Shown in pieces: positions 84 through 21,921 of a stretch of 24,108 bases of DNA (position 1 is its first letter; each line of letters starts with the position of its first letter). A program made the translations under genes and the position numbers. The DNA is from a virus. Location of the stretch: IMG/VR virus record IMGVR_UViG_3300025890_000155, positions 1 through 24,108 of that record. One strand, given 5' to 3'. The notes below the pieces were generated by a model. The model was not told where the DNA came from and made no database searches. It was given only the letters and a program-made list of their open reading frames with translations.

Positions 84-99
84 GTAATTGAGATTTTGA
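84..99 (-). promoter_or_regulatory. Conserved early leader motif, copy 1
   Basis: The sense strand reads CTCAAAATCTCAATTAC and abuts the ATG at 83. Sixteen bases are identical to the copy before the gene at 554. This copy has no obvious promoter nearby, which argues that the motif acts at translation or on RNA rather than only as part of a promoter. Confidence 0.55.
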
Positions 100-179
100 G
101 TTAGTAAAAAAGGACGATGTTTAGGTTTCTCTCCCATCGATGCAAGCCTTCGTCACCCACAGCTTACACCGTTGTGTGT

Positions 180-554
180 TTATGACAGGAAGGCAGCGAT
201 GTTGTCCTGTGCATCCTCGATGCGTTGCTCTTGCATATTGTTAGCAACCTGCAACTTCTCTCTGAACCATCGCTTGAACTCAAGTATATCATCGCCATGA
301 CAACCCCAACCCCCATTCTTCAGGACGCTTCGTCGGTGTCCGTTTTGATCGTACATGACGAGGAATGCATATACATATGGTAGACCGCCTCCGTTGTTAT
401 CTTCGAGTCGATACTCGATAGCTATCTTTCGAGTTCCACCATCTATGAAGGTGTTCGTGAGTATAGACTTGTGATTGTCGGGGTTGATTCCGATTACTTC
501 TAGTCTGTCCCATGCACCCAGCAAGTGGGTCAATGTGTTGTGTGTACATTTCAT
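180..554 (-). CDS. Hypothetical early phage protein, 124 aa
   Basis: This soluble 124-residue protein has no membrane segment and no motif I recognise. It contains a Gly-rich stretch (LEDNNGGGLPYVYAFLVMYD) and an acidic, helical C-terminus. An upstream ATG at 593 would add 13 residues, but that extension covers the -7 element of the promoter at 591-622 and the leader motif, so I place the start at 554. The gene is the first unit of its own transcript, with about 36 bases between the -7 element and the ATG. A role in early host takeover would fit its position in the leftward arm, but nothing in the sequence shows a function. Confidence 0.7.
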   Translation of the reverse strand: MKCTHNTLTHLLGAWDRLEVIGINPDNHKSILTNTFIDGGTRKIAIEYRLEDNNGGGLPYVYAFLVMYDQNGHRRSVLKNGGWGCHGDDILEFKRWFREKLQVANNMQEQRIEDAQDNIAAFLS

Positions 555-571
555 GTAATTGAGATTTTGAT
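555..571 (-). promoter_or_regulatory. Conserved early leader motif, copy 2
   Basis: The sense strand reads ATCAAAATCTCAATTAC immediately before the ATG at 554. It lies in the 5' leader, downstream of the promoter at 591-622, so it would be transcribed and placed next to the start codon. Confidence 0.6.
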
Positions 572-590
572 TTCGTCGTTGTTGACACTG

Positions 591-622
591 CAAAGATAAG
601 GCAGAGTTTTCCTTTTTCCAAA
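591..622 (-). promoter_or_regulatory. Leftward Bacteroidota-type promoter (TTTG-N20-TATCTTTG)
   Basis: On the minus strand, TTTG (622-619) is followed by exactly 20 bases and TATCTTTG (598-591), matching the Bacteroidota sigma-A pattern. The 13 bases GAAAATAAATTTG covering its -33 box are identical to those of the promoter at 2071-2102. It reads into the gene at 180-554. Confidence 0.75.
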
Positions 623-630
623 TTTATTTT

Positions 631-891
631 CTAATCCGCTGATTCTGAGGGGATTACAACCACTCCATCAACTTGTTCTGAGTAGCACCAGTGTCCGTTG
701 TTCAGGGTCAGTACGTAATGGTCATCCAAGTGTACGCACTCCACCTCATCCCCGTATTTCTCGCGAGGGTATTCCGTGCGCTCTACGCCTGTGACTACTG
801 CAATTCTCTGTGGGTCAGAGCCGAAGCCCCCACGATACACCACCTGTGTACCCTTGCGGATTATCCGCTTGTTCACAAACTTTGTTTTCAT
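631..891 (-). CDS. Hypothetical early phage protein, 86 aa
   Basis: The sequence is small and soluble, with the features VVYRGGFGSDPQ, a Val-rich central strand and a C-terminal LNNGHWCYSEQV. That pattern of a glycine-rich strand followed by a NGHW motif looks like small conserved proteins in other phages, but I cannot name a function. I take the ATG at 891 because AAAAAGATTAA precedes it, as AAAAAGATAATG precedes the next gene upstream; an in-frame ATG at 915 would add eight residues and overlap the upstream gene. Its TAG stop (631-633) touches the A-rich part of the promoter for the gene at 180-554. It is probably cotranscribed with the genes at 894-1494. Confidence 0.65.
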   Translation of the reverse strand: MKTKFVNKRIIRKGTQVVYRGGFGSDPQRIAVVTGVERTEYPREKYGDEVECVHLDDHYVLTLNNGHWCYSEQVDGVVVIPSESAD

Positions 892-893
892 TT

Positions 894-1082
894 TTAATCT
901 TTTTGAATTATCCATACTTCGTCCAATGGCATTCCAGTTTTCCGCTCAACCGAAGCAATGAAATTGTCCATGTGCGCTTGATCGTTGAACACCTTGGTGA
1001 CTGCCCACCCTGCGCTTCTGCCAGTACGCCAGTTACCTGAGTTTCCGTTGTCGAATTGTATCGTTGCTTTAATCATTGTCAT
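894..1082 (-). CDS. Hypothetical early phage protein, 62 aa
   Basis: This small, soluble protein (pattern GRSAGWAVTKVFNDQAHMDN) has mixed alpha/beta character and is not recognised. Two in-frame starts are possible, at 1082 and at 1076; the first is used here because the A-rich AAAAAGATA lies right before it. The start overlaps the 3' end of the gene at 1069-1494 by 14 bases, so translational coupling is likely. Its TAA is two bases from the start of the gene at 631-891, which makes a tightly packed three-gene unit. Confidence 0.6.
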   Translation of the reverse strand: MTMIKATIQFDNGNSGNWRTGRSAGWAVTKVFNDQAHMDNFIASVERKTGMPLDEVWIIQKD

Positions 1083-1494
1083 TATCTTTTTCTATGAAAA
1101 CACTTTTGCTTTCCCTTGCATCGTAGTAGGCATCTTCGTTGCGCTCCTTGCATAATGCATATGCAGAGCGAGAACTAGCAACTTTTTCCGATACATCGAA
1201 GACGATGCAGTCATTGTCAACCCAAGTGCCTACGGCATATGAGACTCCGCTAAGTTTAGATTCCTTGATTAGCTTGCGCACCTCGGTTGCATAATGTAGC
1301 CAGATGGAGTGAAACAGCGGTGCGTTGCAAAAATCCAAAGGGATTTTGGTTTCGCCTGTCAGACCGCCCACCATGAAGCCACTATAAGGGACTTCAAAGT
1401 CGTATCCGTCTGACGTGAGTAAGGATGAGCTACCATCCATAAGGGTTCTGCCATAGGCAAGGCGAACAGCGTGTGTTGAGAACATTGTATTCAT
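1069..1494 (-). CDS. Hypothetical early phage protein, 141 aa
   Basis: This soluble protein of 141 residues has a C-terminal half that runs VGTWVDNDCIVFDVSEKV and then a charged helix (ALCKERNEDAYYDARESKS). I have seen a similar arrangement, a V-G-x-W-V strand, a DVS turn and an A-x-x-x-A-x-x-R helix, in small uncharacterised phage proteins, but the function is unknown. The first ATG (1494) is used; a second Met at residue 4 is also possible. A run of TTAATCTTTTTC lies just upstream, unlike the AAAATCTCAAT leader of other genes in the arm. It probably shares a transcript with the 46-residue gene upstream and the genes at 894 and 631 downstream. Confidence 0.65.
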   Translation of the reverse strand: MNTMFSTHAVRLAYGRTLMDGSSSLLTSDGYDFEVPYSGFMVGGLTGETKIPLDFCNAPLFHSIWLHYATEVRKLIKESKLSGVSYAVGTWVDNDCIVFDVSEKVASSRSAYALCKERNEDAYYDARESKSVFIEKDNDND

Positions 1495-1506
1495 ATTTGA
1501 AAAAGA

Positions 1507-1647
1507 TTAATTGAAAATTAAAGAAGTGTGAGCATCGTAGGCATCGGCAACAAGCCGACAGCCCTCGTAGTCGTGGATGTAGTTGAAGTAGACGTAAGCA
1601 TCTACCATCTCCTCTAAGGAGAATTCAAGGAAGTGATTATAGTTCAT
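1507..1647 (-). CDS. Small acidic hypothetical protein, 46 aa
   Basis: The reading frame from the ATG at 1647 to TAA at 1507 gives 46 residues, starting MNYNHFLEFSLEEMVDAYVY and rich in Tyr, Asp and Glu. It fills an otherwise empty 142-base gap between two genes on the same strand and overlaps the 35-residue gene upstream by 11 bases, as neighbouring genes in this arm do. There is no membrane segment or known motif. A function cannot be assigned. Confidence 0.5.
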   Translation of the reverse strand: MNYNHFLEFSLEEMVDAYVYFNYIHDYEGCRLVADAYDAHTSLIFN

Positions 1648-1744
1648 ACTCTCGTGCCTTTACGATTAGGACTAGGATGGTGATGCATTCCACGGCTATC
1701 AAGCCCATGGCTATCTGCTCGCTGAGTGTAGGTAAATTGTACAT
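1637..1744 (-). CDS. Small single-pass membrane protein, 35 aa
   Basis: The product has 35 residues and contains one hydrophobic segment, AMGLIAVECITILVLIVKA, at about residues 12-30, followed by a short charged tail (REYEL). This is typical of a one-pass inner-membrane peptide. The frame is open much further upstream, to 2026, but that extension is antisense-quality sequence overlapping the real gene at 1803-2033. The conserved leader ATCAAAATCTTAATAAT sits directly before the ATG at 1744 and fixes the start; an in-frame ATG at 1792 is a weaker alternative. Small membrane peptides of early phage arms often target host functions, but no specific role is shown here. Confidence 0.55.
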   Translation of the reverse strand: MYNLPTLSEQIAMGLIAVECITILVLIVKAREYEL

Positions 1745-1761
1745 ATTATTAAGATTTTGAT
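1745..1761 (-). promoter_or_regulatory. Conserved early leader motif, copy 3
   Basis: The sense strand reads ATCAAAATCTTAATAAT before the ATG at 1744, with one change in the core (CTTAAT for CTCAAT). It precedes a 35-residue gene and supports that short gene being real. Confidence 0.5.
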
Positions 1762-1802
1762 TGATACAGACGCTTCGCAGCGTTTCGTCCATGCAGGACT
1801 CA

Positions 1803-2033
1803 TCAGTGTACCTTGGGTGCTTCATCCCACTCGCTCTTCGGAATATCGTGCCAGTCAGTCCAGTACATAAACTCATCCTCGAACGCCTCATCCAGCGTAT
1901 CGTAGTCGTGTTCCTGACAGATGCGGAGCGCATCTTTCTCGTACTTAGCGTAGAAGAATCCAAGACCTTCGAAGTACCAACCCTCGAACATAGGTTCGTT
2001 GGTGATTGTGCAGTAGCGGGGTGCATTTTTCAT
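1803..2033 (-). CDS. Acidic, aromatic-rich hypothetical protein, 76 aa
   Basis: This protein is strongly acidic and rich in aromatic residues, with runs such as EGWYFEGLGFFYAKYEKDAL and DEFMYWTDWHDIPKSEWDE. Such composition is seen in DNA-mimic and protein-inhibitor peptides of phages, but that is only an analogy. An in-frame ATG at 2084 would add 17 residues covering the promoter -7 element, so I start at 2033, after the conserved leader. The gene has its own promoter at 2071-2102 and about 37 bases of leader. The 58 bases after its stop contain a small inverted repeat, ACGCT/AGCGT, of uncertain meaning. Confidence 0.7.
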   Translation of the reverse strand: MKNAPRYCTITNEPMFEGWYFEGLGFFYAKYEKDALRICQEHDYDTLDEAFEDEFMYWTDWHDIPKSEWDEAPKVH

Positions 2034-2041
2034 GTGTGGGA

Positions 2042-2057
2042 TAATTGAGATTTTGAT
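2042..2057 (-). promoter_or_regulatory. Conserved early leader motif, copy 4
   Basis: The sense strand reads ATCAAAATCTCAATTA, then eight bases, then the ATG at 2033. The core is identical to copies 1 and 2, but the spacing to the start codon is longer. Confidence 0.6.
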
Positions 2058-2070
2058 TTGGAAGACGATA

Positions 2071-2102
2071 CAAATATACAACATTCAAACACCGAAGTCA
2101 AA
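2071..2102 (-). promoter_or_regulatory. Leftward Bacteroidota-type promoter (TTTG-N20-TATATTTG)
   Basis: On the minus strand TTTG (2102-2099), 20 bases and TATATTTG (2078-2071) are present. The GAAAATAAATTTG block around the -33 box is the same 13 bases as in the promoter at 591-622. It drives the gene at 1803-2033 and probably those after it. Confidence 0.75.
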
Positions 2103-2135
2103 TTTATTTTCATTTCTTCAGTGTTTACAGGGGTT

Positions 2136-2735
2136 TCAGAGCCATCGATTACGGATGGTTACCCATATGATAGCCTGCAACTCGTAAGGCTTGTACCCCA
2201 TGCTCCTTGCTAGCTTGCAGAAGTGTGCGCTCAGTCGGTCGTATTGCAAGGGTGTTACGCTGGTTTGTACGTCCTTGGGTGTCTGCGACGTAGTCACGAA
2301 GGCACGAAGCATCCACTTGTCAATCGTAACAACAGACTCATCCATCACGCCCACATTGAGTGCGAAAGCGTGAGTTTTTCTAGCCTTGCGGAGCATCTCT
2401 ACGTCACCGCTCAAGATCGCCCACGCCCTGCGCTTGTTGTTGGTGTACGTGCACACCTTGACAGACTCCATGGATTCACCACTCACGAAGGCTTGGATGA
2501 GATTGAATGCATCAATCTTATTGCGCTCCCACTTGTTGTTGGGTGAGAGTGCGCTTATGACTGCGGCGGCTACGACTTTGGAGATGTTGAACGTAACCGA
2601 AAGGTACTCAGCAAACTCCATAGCAGAAGCATACCATGCTTTGCCTTCGCGGATTTCGTCCTCGGTTGCACGCCCCGTCCACGATTTAACGTGAGCGGTG
2701 ACGCGCTTCAGTGGGTATGTGCTTAGGCTATTCAT
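2136..2735 (-). CDS. Putative helix-hairpin-helix, DNA-glycosylase-like phage protein
   Basis: The protein has 199 residues and is largely helical. Around residues 55-75 it carries AAVISALSPNNKWERN, and around residues 138-145 VTIDKWMLRAF. The layout, a conserved helical N-half followed by a V-x-[IV]-D-x-x-x-x-R segment and a C-terminal helix with ELQAIIWV, recalls small phage proteins distantly related to the HhH-GPD DNA glycosylase fold, where a V-D-T-H-V motif carries the catalytic Asp. Here the Asp (TID) is kept but the usual lysine of bifunctional enzymes is not evident. That assignment is an inference from pattern memory. The start overlaps the stop of the upstream gene by 4 bases, so the two are coupled. 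It might repair or process modified phage DNA. Confidence 0.5.
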   Translation of the reverse strand: MNSLSTYPLKRVTAHVKSWTGRATEDEIREGKAWYASAMEFAEYLSVTFNISKVVAAAVISALSPNNKWERNKIDAFNLIQAFVSGESMESVKVCTYTNNKRRAWAILSGDVEMLRKARKTHAFALNVGVMDESVVTIDKWMLRAFVTTSQTPKDVQTSVTPLQYDRLSAHFCKLARSMGYKPYELQAIIWVTIRNRWL

Positions 2736-3382
2736 GCTTCGAGGTTCATCGTGAGTTGCTCGGCTTCGATTCGGATAGCCTCAGCCTCGGCTTGAGCCTG
2801 CTGGATTTTCATGCGGCGGATACCCTGCTCAGGTGACTCCCCAGGCAGGAGGGTGAGACGCATCTGCTCACGCTTGACTGATTTGCGCTCCTCCACAGGC
2901 ACCTCCATTCGAGGCTCGAAAGGTTGCGCTTCCTTGCCAGTAACGGCGTGAACAACCTTCGTTTTCTTGACCTTACCAACCTTGTTGGCAGTCGCCGTCC
3001 GTGCTTGGGCCTGCTCTAGTCCGTCAGCACTGGAACGTTTGGGCTTGCGGACAGCCACCCTAGCCTTGGAAGCCTTTACAGGCTTTTTCTTGCGCTTGGG
3101 CTTGTTCGTGGGCTCGGTTTCTGCATCTCGCTTAGCTACGTAGCCATCGATAGCCTCACGAAGTCCAAGGATGTAGCCAACCAATTCGGCTTTCGACTTT
3201 TGCATGAGCGCCGCCTCGCTCATCGCAGGCTTGGGTGCCTCTGTGGGCTTTGCCTTGCGCTTGGGCTTGGGTGTCTGGGCCGCTCGCTCTGCAGCGTATC
3301 GAGCCTTGTTAGCGGCCTTTCTTTCAGCCTTAGTGAACTTACGTCCAGTCTCTGGACAGTGGGTTGGTGTGTATGTTGACAT
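2732..3382 (-). CDS. Lysine/alanine-rich basic protein, 216 aa
   Basis: This highly basic, low-complexity protein has repeated PKRK-type tracts (KPKRKAKP, KPKRKKKP, RKPKRSS) between about residues 38 and 130, and a C-terminal charged helix with RRMKIQQAQAEAEAIRIE. An N-terminal CPETGRKFTKAERKAANKAR could be a small turn-helix. Such histone-H1-like composition suggests binding to nucleic acid or to acidic partners, but no enzyme motif is present. In-frame ATGs allow 231 residues from 3427, but that would cover the promoter's -7 element; the leader motif and promoter place the start at 3382. It is the first gene of the operon with the gene at 2136-2735. Its base composition (one 60-base sample is 63% G+C) is far above that of the rightward genes. 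Confidence 0.6.
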   Translation of the reverse strand: MSTYTPTHCPETGRKFTKAERKAANKARYAAERAAQTPKPKRKAKPTEAPKPAMSEAALMQKSKAELVGYILGLREAIDGYVAKRDAETEPTNKPKRKKKPVKASKARVAVRKPKRSSADGLEQAQARTATANKVGKVKKTKVVHAVTGKEAQPFEPRMEVPVEERKSVKREQMRLTLLPGESPEQGIRRMKIQQAQAEAEAIRIEAEQLTMNLEA

Positions 3383-3384
3383 AC

Positions 3385-3398
3385 ATTGAGATTTAGAT
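3385..3398 (-). promoter_or_regulatory. Conserved early leader motif, copy 5
   Basis: The sense strand reads ATCTAAATCTCAAT, then two bases and the ATG at 3382. This copy differs from copies 1, 2 and 4 by one base in the A-tract (TAAATC for AAAATC). Confidence 0.5.
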
Positions 3399-14177: not shown

Positions 14178-14403
14178 AATTCTGACTGAATACCCTTCAA
14201 CTATAGATTACTACAGTGATGAATGGACTCATGATTGGAGTAGTGATGTAGATAGCCCTGTACATTTTAATCCATGCAACACGCCTAACCCACCGTGGTG
14301 GTGCGAAGAACACGAACCAATCCCGATCGAACCGAACATTTTAATGATTGTTGGAATGTTCACATTTGGAGTATTACTTTTGACAAAAAAAATGCACCCG
14401 TAG
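14149..14403 (+). CDS. C-terminally anchored membrane protein, 84 aa
   Basis: The N-terminal two thirds are acidic and aromatic, with two cysteines and prolines (NPCNTPNPPWWCEEHEP), and the last 25 residues contain a single membrane helix (LMIVGMFTFGVLLL) with a positively charged end (TKKMHP). This would leave most of the protein outside, or with N-out topology, and only a short inside tail. An AGAAGG-like sequence precedes the ATG at 14149; a Met at 14161 is an alternative. The stop TAG lies inside the following tRNA gene. It could be a membrane-acting lysis or host-interaction factor, but no family is recognised. Confidence 0.6.
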   Translation: MLFTMAQQDEILTEYPSTIDYYSDEWTHDWSSDVDSPVHFNPCNTPNPPWWCEEHEPIPIEPNILMIVGMFTFGVLLLTKKMHP

Positions 14404-14467
14404 CTCAGCTGGATAGAGCATCTGCCTTCTAAGCAGACGGTCACAGGTTCGAGTCCTGTCGGGTGTA
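14394..14467 (+). tRNA. tRNA-Arg, anticodon TCT
   Basis: The cloverleaf is complete: acceptor GCACCCG/CGGGTGT, D-arm GCTC...GAGC, anticodon stem TCTGC/GCAGA with loop CTTCTAA (anticodon TCT, reading AGA/AGG), and T-arm ACAGG-TTCGAGT-CCTGT. The discriminator base is A and no CCA is encoded. The first and last acceptor bases pair as G-U. AGA and AGG codons are frequent in the rightward genes, so the tRNA may raise their decoding. The first 10 bases overlap the end of the upstream protein gene. Confidence 0.92.
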
Positions 14468-14484
14468 CAATTAAATTAAAAAAC

Positions 14485-14673
14485 ATGCCAGACTTAATTT
14501 GCCAGGAATGCAAATCCGAGAAATCAATCCAAACCCTAACCATGAAGTTTAAGGACGGGGAAGTCTACTACCCTGAAGGCCAATGCGATTGCGGTAAACA
14601 AATGACGCTCAAAAACCCCAAAAAAGGAGTACCTTCGTTGGGTAGAATGACAAAGCACGGACAGAGCTATTGA
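14485..14673 (+). CDS. Small zinc-ribbon protein, 62 aa
   Basis: The protein has two cysteine pairs, ICQECKSEK near residue 5 and GQCDCGKQM near residue 34, typical of a small zinc ribbon (C-x2-C ... C-x-C). The remainder is basic and Gly/Ser-rich. It sits directly in front of the terminase and shares TGATG with it, so the two are translationally coupled. A role as a DNA-binding or packaging accessory is plausible but not shown. Confidence 0.6.
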   Translation: MPDLICQECKSEKSIQTLTMKFKDGEVYYPEGQCDCGKQMTLKNPKKGVPSLGRMTKHGQSY

Positions 14674-16781
14674 TGTCCAGTTTAATCGACATAGAAGGGT
14701 ATGAAGCTAAAGGGATTAAGATCGACCCTAACGGTACAGAAGGAGAAACTATCGAGCTCCACGGGTTACTCGTTGTTTTACCGAAAAAACCTAAGCGATC
14801 TCAGATCCTGTTCCATGACAAAGCAAAGAAGCTGCAAATGTGGAAGCGCATACCTATGCCCCAAGAAATGCAGAGGGTTCGCGGTATGGATGAGTGGATC
14901 GAAAAACCTGCCGAGTTTCGCAACAAGTTTCGTTCTTACATCGAGCAAGAGTTTCAGCGTAGGCGAGACGGTGTGTGGTTTTACAATAATGGGAAACCTA
15001 CGTATATTACAGGGAGACACTATATGTTTCTACAATGGTCTAAAATTGATATCGGATACCCATCATACCTTGCTTTCCAAAAAGAAATCTTTCTCCACAT
15101 GGCTGCGTGTGAAGCTGATCCTCGTTGTTTCGGTCAGCTATATACTAAGTGTCGTCGTTCTGGCTACACTAATATATGCTCTGCTGTCCTTGTGGACGAA
15201 GCTACTCAAGTTAAAGAAAAGCTTCTCGGTATTCAATCGAAAACTGGTAAGGACGCCCAGGAAAATATTTTCATGAAGAAAGCGGTTGCGATATTTCGCG
15301 GCTACCCTTTTTTCTTTAAGCCTATACAGGACGGCACTACAAATCCACGTATGGAGCTAGCCTTTCGTGAGCCGTCGAAGCGCATAACCAAGAATAATAA
15401 AACCTCTCAGATTGGTGACGCTCTTAATTCAGTTATAAACTGGAAGAACACAACTAACAATGCTTATGATGGCGAAAAGCTTCACATGCTTTATCTTGAC
15501 GAAGCAGGCAAGTGGGAAAGACCGTCAGACATTAGGGAGGCCTGGAGAATAGAACGAACCTGCTTAATAGTTGGTAAGAGAATTGTGGGTAAGGCGCTTG
15601 TGGGTAGCACTGTGAATCCGATGAATAAGGGTGGTGAAGAATACAGAGCCCTCTGGGGCGATTCAAGCCCCAGCGAAAGAAACAACAACGGAAGAACAAG
15701 GTCTGGCCTTTACAGGATATTTATCCCCGCTTATGATGCCTTAGAGGGCTTTTTTGACGAGTACGGAAATGCTGTGTCGGAGGACCCTAGCTCAGACATC
15801 CTCGGTATTGACGGATCAACTATTGATTTGGGTAGCAAGACTTACTTGAAGAATGACAGAAAGTCATTCAAGGATGATCCATCGGAGCTCAATGAAATAA
15901 TTAGGCAGTTCCCTTTTACTGAGGACGAGGCGTTTCGAGATAGTATTGATGGTGCTTTATTCAATATAGGAAAAATATATCAGCAAATAGAAAGTAATGA
16001 TGATCTGTATCCGAGTCCAGTCGTAAGGGGAAACCTTATTTGGAGGAAAAGAGATGAGGAGGTCGTTTTTTCACCAGACCCTAACGGTAGGTTTAGGGTG
16101 TCCTGGTTGCCGCCTGAGCATCTAGCTAACAAAAAGGCTGAAAATAGAGGCAAAAAAATAGCACCAAATAAACATATTGGGGTTGGAGGGGTTGACTCCT
16201 ATGACTTAGACGTCACTGTTGATAGCAGGGGGTCTAAAGGCGCTCTTCATATGTACAATAAGTTTAACATGGACGTCCCCGCTAACATGTTTGTTGTTGA
16301 GTATGCCTCACGTCCAGACCTGGCTAGCATTTTCTATGAGGATGTACTTATGTGTGCGTTCTATTATGGGTACCCTTTGCTTATAGAGAACAATAAGTAC
16401 GGTATTGCAAGATACTTTGAGTCAAGGGGTTACGACGGCTACCTAATGGATCGGCCCGAGCACTTAAAAACATCCAGCTCTGGAAGCGTAAGAACGAAGG
16501 GCATACCCTCGAATTCACAGGACGTTATACAGTCTCATGCTCACGCTATAGAGGCTTATATTCATGATCATGTAGGTGTAAATCTTGAAACTGGGGAGAT
16601 GGGTAATATGCACTTTAATCGAACCCTTGAGGATTGGATTGGATATAAAATAGACAAGCGGACTAAGTTTGACCTGACTATAAGCTCTGGATTAGCCCTC
16701 CTTGCCGCACAAAAGGTAAAGGAAGAAAAAACTACGTCTAATTTTTCAGATAAGCGGTTCTTCAGGAGATATAAGGTCTAA
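14673..16781 (+). CDS. terL: Terminase large subunit
   Basis: This is the motor and nuclease that packs DNA into the procapsid. The ATPase part shows a Walker-A-like YTKCRRSGYTN at residues 157-167, a Walker B LHMLYLDEAG with Asp276 and Glu277, and a coupling motif GSTVN at residues 311-315. The RNase H-like nuclease shows GVDSYDLD with Asp508, LLIENN with Glu572 and KFDLTISSG with Asp667. The Walker A is odd because Tyr165 stands where lysine is usual. The ATG at 14673 is used (702 residues); a TTG three bases upstream would only add one residue. Length is near that of crAss-like and similar large terminases. The portal gene follows 48 bases on. Confidence 0.9.
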   Translation: MSSLIDIEGYEAKGIKIDPNGTEGETIELHGLLVVLPKKPKRSQILFHDKAKKLQMWKRIPMPQEMQRVRGMDEWIEKPAEFRNKFRSYIEQEFQRRRDGVWFYNNGKPTYITGRHYMFLQWSKIDIGYPSYLAFQKEIFLHMAACEADPRCFGQLYTKCRRSGYTNICSAVLVDEATQVKEKLLGIQSKTGKDAQENIFMKKAVAIFRGYPFFFKPIQDGTTNPRMELAFREPSKRITKNNKTSQIGDALNSVINWKNTTNNAYDGEKLHMLYLDEAGKWERPSDIREAWRIERTCLIVGKRIVGKALVGSTVNPMNKGGEEYRALWGDSSPSERNNNGRTRSGLYRIFIPAYDALEGFFDEYGNAVSEDPSSDILGIDGSTIDLGSKTYLKNDRKSFKDDPSELNEIIRQFPFTEDEAFRDSIDGALFNIGKIYQQIESNDDLYPSPVVRGNLIWRKRDEEVVFSPDPNGRFRVSWLPPEHLANKKAENRGKKIAPNKHIGVGGVDSYDLDVTVDSRGSKGALHMYNKFNMDVPANMFVVEYASRPDLASIFYEDVLMCAFYYGYPLLIENNKYGIARYFESRGYDGYLMDRPEHLKTSSSGSVRTKGIPSNSQDVIQSHAHAIEAYIHDHVGVNLETGEMGNMHFNRTLEDWIGYKIDKRTKFDLTISSGLALLAAQKVKEEKTTSNFSDKRFFRRYKV

Positions 16782-21844: not shown

Positions 21845-21921
21845 TAAACTGGTTTAAAGCATTATTGTTAACGGTCAGACCAACACTTAATAAAGTATTT
21901 ACTAATGGCTATAAATTTTGA
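21841..21921 (+). CDS. Possible 26-residue peptide bridging two fibre genes
   Basis: An ATG overlaps the previous stop as ATGA and opens a 26-codon frame (MINWFKALLLTVRPTLNKVF then TNGYKF) that ends 17 bases inside the next gene. A short hydrophobic stretch (WFKALLLTV) is present. Overlaps at both ends resemble translational coupling, but its size makes it uncertain. Confidence 0.3.
   Translation: MINWFKALLLTVRPTLNKVFTNGYKF

Follow-up and report, generated by a model that had tools for sequence, protein, structure and literature searches.

Five early genes of a marine Bacteroidota phage, in the leftward block of the window (the whole 24,108-nt stretch of viral DNA analyzed here, positions 1 to 24,108 of IMG/VR record IMGVR_UViG_3300025890_000155), carry nearly the same short leader just before their start codons, which raises the question of what this sequence does and why it stands both behind promoters and before genes without one nearby. 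The copies, all on the minus strand and named here with the element upstream of each, are as follows:

3385 to 3398, minus strand: leader copy ATCTAAATCTCAAT, 5' of the gene with start 3382; a -7 box TAACTTTG and a 5' hairpin lie just upstream
2044 to 2057, minus strand: leader copy ATCAAAATCTCAAT, 5' of the gene with start 2033; a -7 box TATATTTG lies upstream, without a 5' hairpin
1748 to 1761, minus strand: leader copy ATCAAAATCTTAAT, 5' of a 35-codon ORF with start 1744; directly downstream of a hammerhead
558 to 571, minus strand: leader copy ATCAAAATCTCAAT, 5' of the gene with start 554; a -7 box TATCTTTG and a small hairpin lie upstream
87 to 100, minus strand: leader copy CTCAAAATCTCAAT, 5' of the ORF with start 83; neither promoter nor hammerhead upstream

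All five copies listed in a preliminary description of this DNA were recovered, each on the sense strand of its gene and with 0–1 mismatch to ATCAAAATCTCAAT. Their 3' ends lie 2–10 nt from the ATGs at 83, 554, 1744, 2033 and 3382, with a gap of 3 nt at most sites, and only ~0.02 matches per window with at most one mismatch are expected in simulated sequence of the same dinucleotide composition. Allowing two mismatches revealed no copy in the window beyond the leftward block, and the rightward genes were without the motif. A shorter AAAAAATCTC had also been reported before the portal gene; it is present, but the portal orthologues examined lack it while conserving the TATATTTG box, and it was dropped as a leader variant for this want of conservation. 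Most likely, it is no more than a start region rich in A.

The position of the leader is also specific in relatives, a set comprising contigs related through the DUF7178 gene and contigs found by the leader sequence itself. Overall, 35 of 36 sites with 0–1 mismatch stand 1–11 nt before an ATG; many of these sites come from closely related contigs and are not independent, and the window copy at 3382 was counted by hand among the 35 (CAATG holds an earlier ATG). The sole exception, on a 176-kb contig (L048), looks like a chance match. The DUF7178 protein (window positions 2139–2735, minus strand) has tblastn matches in 113 phage records, from phages of Mycobacterium, Gordonia, cyanobacteria and Roseobacter-type hosts, where it is sometimes annotated as a glycosylase. 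Relatives of the window's portal gene come from phages of Flavobacterium, Cellulophaga, Tenacibaculum and Maribacter; a search of the window for host 16S sequence found none.

A Shine–Dalgarno sequence (AGGAG-like, 5–10 nt before the start) is absent at all five starts, and where the gap to the ATG is 3 nt the motif places AAAA at -14 to -11 and an A at -6, with mostly C or T, not A, at -3 in the window and most close relatives. In 50 non-Shine–Dalgarno leaders that follow hammerheads, A occupies -3 in 84%, -6 in 66%, -11 in 82%, -12 in 82% and -13 in 74%; these enriched positions are those reported for the initiation region of Flavobacterium johnsoniae, which is A-rich at -14 to -11, has start-proximal A positions and is low in structure from -20 to +20 (PMC6847099). 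The earlier proposal of a phage-specific translation signal independent of Shine–Dalgarno pairing thus stands in part, carried by the position next to the ATG, the specificity of 35 sites in 36 and the A-rich stretch from -11 to -14 (PMC6847099).

The same description had offered a second possibility, a site for an RNA-binding protein or small RNA. In this reading, a phage protein or small RNA would bind the 14 letters and so control the translation or stability of early genes. Conservation does extend beyond A-richness, with C residues kept across contigs whose 5' hairpins vary. However, no evidence for such a partner emerged: the window holds no complementary copy of the leader, pairing with 16S rRNA equals that of shuffled leaders, and more distant relatives use other letters (for example, TCTAAATCTCTCTCTC), which together make this reading quite unlikely. 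Pairing with the 5' end of 16S rRNA was itself tried as a candidate and rejected, since the leader reaches 11 of 14 pairs, yet 11 or 12 pairs are also attained by 37% of the shuffled leaders.

What precedes the leader differs from gene to gene. A -7 box of the Bacteroidota promoter class (-33 TTTG / -7 TAnnTTTG) lies upstream at 554, 2033 and 3382 and is absent at 83 and 1744, confirming that some copies stand before genes without a nearby promoter; the earlier figure of 36–42 bases downstream of three promoters is right when counted from the -7 box (TAnnTTTG) up to the start codon. For most promoter-driven copies in the lineage, those at 554 and 3382 among them, a small hairpin separates the leader from the expected transcription start; the 2033 copy lacks one. 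The hairpin sequence varies from gene to gene and phage to phage (GGCAAUGUUGCC, GCCAAUCGGC and GACAACAACGUC, among others); compared with shuffles, the fold mostly ranks in the best few percent. A further arrangement occurs in L010 (8600–8690), where a long and stable 5' fold, two hairpins closed by GCUGUCC..GGACAGC, separates a promoter from a leader copy and has no Rfam match.

At the promoterless start 1744, the preliminary description had missed the element immediately upstream, as it had the tRNA-like ends found in relatives (below), so that its account of the leader is upheld only in part. This element is a type I hammerhead ribozyme, for which the minimum free energy structure is exactly the hammerhead fold:

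1763 to 1812, minus strand: type I hammerhead ribozyme, called from its fold and covariation
1812 to 1807 with 1768 to 1763, minus strand: stem I, followed by the core CUGAUGA (1806 to 1800), stem II, GAA and stem III
1803 to 1805, minus strand: UGA of the core CUGAUGA that doubles as the stop codon ending the upstream ORF (start 2033)

The three stems have 6, 4 and 5 pairs, stem I forms the open end, and the core CUGAUGA/GAA/GUC is complete. Cleavage is predicted at C1769, where a cut between 1769 and 1768 would leave an unpaired 24-nt leader to the ATG at 1744. A strict finder requiring the core and three stems gave one match in the window, more in relatives and zero in reversed sequence. 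Across eleven related hammerheads, 100% of pair cells are standard and five pairs have changed on both sides, with no comparable slid structure. In 84 phage hammerheads collected by a pattern that ignores stem I, that stem nevertheless pairs at 83–100% per position, versus 41–47% with shuffled partners, and uses all four Watson–Crick types. The Rfam Hammerhead_1 model scores the window copy at 22.2 bits (E 0.057 for 4.1 kb searched) and relatives at 21–24 bits, below a gathering score of 34 bits that is a curation cut-off and not a property of ribozymes. None of the hammerheads in seven loci scanned reaches this threshold, so standard annotation would miss them. We infer that the ribozyme cuts in infected cells; no tertiary contact was identified, and this and the sub-threshold scores make its speed there uncertain.

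The leader at 83 follows neither a promoter nor a ribozyme. A hammerhead was ruled out there, as the core is absent and only a stem I-like hairpin is present; the sequence upstream instead folds into an element of another kind:

101 to 165, minus strand: unclassified element 5' of the leader at 83, called as structured from its fold; a GGUGUAAGC..GGCUUGCAUC hairpin, then GAUGGGAGAGAAACCUAAACAUCGUCC

This element recurs in L007 and L054, and in L046 for the part visible there, in the conserved form GGTGTAAGC..GGCTTGCA[CT]CGATGGGAGAGAAACCTAAACATCGTCC. Before the gene at 83, L006 has a tRNA-like 3' end, and the window, L007 and L047 have structured RNAs of other kinds; the L007 hairpin is followed by a T-rich run and is terminator-like. 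The tRNA-like RNA, 132–166 nt long, combines a T-arm with an acceptor stem of 7 bp (UAGCGAU/AUCGCUA) and was located in these relatives:

L006, 8771 to 8936: tRNA-like RNA
L007, 8337 to 8500: tRNA-like RNA
L009, 8286 to 8417: tRNA-like RNA
L042, L043, L044, L046, L047 and L049: tRNA-like RNA, also present

In L006, L009 and L044, the leader starts within a few nucleotides of the tRNA-like 3' end. ARAGORN and Rfam returned no tRNA call and no full Rfam match for these RNAs, with a partial match to the tmRNA T-arm in L049 only; the RNA is perhaps tmRNA-like. Separately, a conserved, unclassified, pseudoknot-like element lies upstream of the leader in L042 (~1532), L043 (~5938), L047 (~10468) and L049 (~984), with two interleaved stems (TGACC/GGTCA or CCACC/GGTGG, plus CAGGT/ACCTG or CTGGT/ACCAG) that change together and are followed by a CCAC..GTGG hairpin; those of L042 and L047 have no Rfam match. 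Elsewhere in the window, at 14394–14501, a tRNA-Arg (TCT) gene ends 16 nt upstream of the ATG of an ORF at 14485, possibly another tRNA end just before an A-rich leader.

Promoter and ribozyme are also interchangeable upstream of a given gene. Ahead of the gene beginning ATGAGCAAATACGAA, the same leader stands after a hammerhead in L006, L007 and L010 and after a promoter in L008, and the counterpart of this gene in L051 (ATGAACAGATACGAA) likewise follows a promoter. The gene at 554 (ATGAAATGTACACAC) follows a promoter in the window, L007, L008, L042, L044, L047 and L049 and a hammerhead in L051. What the copies behind promoters, hammerheads and tRNA-like ends share is an actual or predicted 5' end close by. 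This favors a role at the RNA level over a DNA operator, in which a transcription factor would bind the leader around +20 of early promoters. Three copies do lie just downstream of promoters, but the promoterless copies behind hammerheads and tRNA-like RNAs, always in sense orientation and adjoining the ATG, leave the operator with hardly any probability.

An alternative reading of the L008 arrangement is a deletion: L008 resembles L006 minus a 76-codon gene and its hammerhead, removed exactly between two copies of the leader. This suggests that the leader might be kept alike mainly as a recombination joint, in which repeats of 14–17 nt allow cassettes to be deleted or swapped and hammerheads travel along, and the presence in each lineage of its own repeated leader fits as well. 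A joint has no need, however, for a 3-nt spacing to the ATG or for As at the positions that tune initiation in Flavobacterium, and unrelated lineages retain the position and the A pattern, not the letters. We regard recombination as a very improbable main reason for the conservation.

Placement before a start codon appears to extend to phage hammerheads generally. In 62% of 144 sequence-distinct clusters of hammerheads on viral contigs, the next start codon lies 20–34 nt after the cut, compared with 4% for the opposite strand, read in the other direction. One contig (L061/L200) carries nine hammerheads in 4.3 kb (L200 4454–8712), at nearly every junction between small genes; seven of the cuts fall 20–24 nt before the ATG, and the other two fall 32 and 34 nt before it, where an additional AGGCGAAAGCC hairpin downstream of the ribozyme keeps the unpaired part at ~20 nt. 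Two cultured phages, Flavobacterium phage elemoE_6-9C and Cellulophaga phage phi18:3, carry the hammerhead–leader unit: in elemoE_6-9C (host Flavobacterium sp. BAL314), cleavage is predicted at 16310 with the gp66 start at 16281, and in phi18:3 (host Cellulophaga baltica #18), at 21910 with the gp049 start at 21875. A search of mainly open-access journal papers found no earlier report of this placement rule.

Our preferred reading, which we hold to be somewhat more probable than its alternatives together, is that the leader serves as an unpaired landing pad of ~20 nt whose 5' side is cut free or insulated, as in the synthetic insulator RiboJ. A-rich, unpaired mRNA directly before the AUG would be the strip on which ribosomes of this lineage land without Shine–Dalgarno pairing, and a clean 5' boundary for it could be supplied in interchangeable ways: by a Bacteroidota promoter that starts the RNA just upstream, mostly with a small 5' hairpin before the pad; by an intergenic hammerhead that would cut polycistronic RNA 20–25 nt before the next AUG; or, in relatives, by a tRNA-like RNA, presumably processed, whose 3' end lies immediately 5' of the pad. 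Cleavage would remove upstream sequence able to pair with the pad, provide every gene with its own 5' end bearing a 5'-OH and make ribozyme- and promoter-derived mRNAs begin alike, RiboJ-fashion; it may thereby raise or standardize translation or mRNA stability.

The main rival to this landing-pad model assigns the hammerhead to the gene upstream, whose mRNA would gain a defined, exonuclease-resistant 3' end (folded stems followed by a 2',3'-cyclic phosphate), the leader being simply the start region of the next gene. The upstream stop indeed lies within -12 to +10 of the core in 96 of 141 clusters, often inside stem I or made by the core, and falls inside CUGA in 15 of the 141. But the start, too, is tightly placed, at 20–34 nt, so that the hammerhead sits exactly between two genes. 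The same leader also occurs behind promoters and tRNA-like ends, which mature no upstream mRNA, and promoter and hammerhead swap before the same gene. On this evidence, a role confined to the upstream gene is unlikely.

Several observations also count against the landing-pad model. The leader at 83, like its counterparts in L007, L046 and L047, sits behind a structured element that may not create a 5' end, the promoter-driven leader at 2033 lacks a 5' hairpin, position -3 is not A in the window and most close relatives, and 14 conserved letters exceed the needs of a generic A-rich pad. The tight placement of upstream stops would also fit a part for the hammerhead in maturing the 3' end of the mRNA before it.

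As a wider proposition, hammerheads in phages, especially those of Bacteroidota, could be natural insulators of the RiboJ type that split polycistronic early RNA into mRNAs starting ~20 nt before the AUG and are interchangeable with promoters and tRNA-like ends, to which we give an even chance. The insulator role, if true, would explain in general terms the presence in phages of hammerheads, whose purpose in phage genomes has been described as unknown (PMC6155905, PMC10085705), while the roles of prokaryotic hammerheads at large were called an open question in a 2017 review (PMC6155905). The placement rule, the promoter–ribozyme interchange and the shared leader together give the hammerhead a concrete, testable role, elemoE_6-9C and phi18:3 make a bench test possible, and such elements could provide natural insulators of ribosome binding sites for Bacteroidota, where Shine–Dalgarno design does not apply.

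Three known systems bear comparison. The window hammerhead and its relatives share the core, three stems, GUC, phage location and clustering with the type I hammerheads described from phages and prophages (RF00163; Perreault et al. 2011, PMC3088659). The accessible part of that report includes a halovirus hammerhead variant 13 nt upstream of a helicase start and gives no general role for such placement; unlike the hammerheads described there, those analyzed here have a general placement 20–34 nt before starts, a leader that also stands behind promoters, and sub-threshold bit scores. The leader resembles the initiation region of F. johnsoniae (PMC6847099) in being A-rich from -14 to -11 and poorly structured between -20 and +20, with start-proximal As, but differs in being a nearly fixed sequence of 14 letters repeated before several genes and in missing A-3 in most copies from the window and close relatives. 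Finally, RiboJ consists of a hammerhead, a hairpin and a ribosome binding site and standardizes the mRNA 5' end (PMC6206723). The same order is found at two of the nine L200 junctions, whereas the natural elements lie between operon genes and lack a Shine–Dalgarno sequence, and in the window the ribozyme is not followed by a hairpin.
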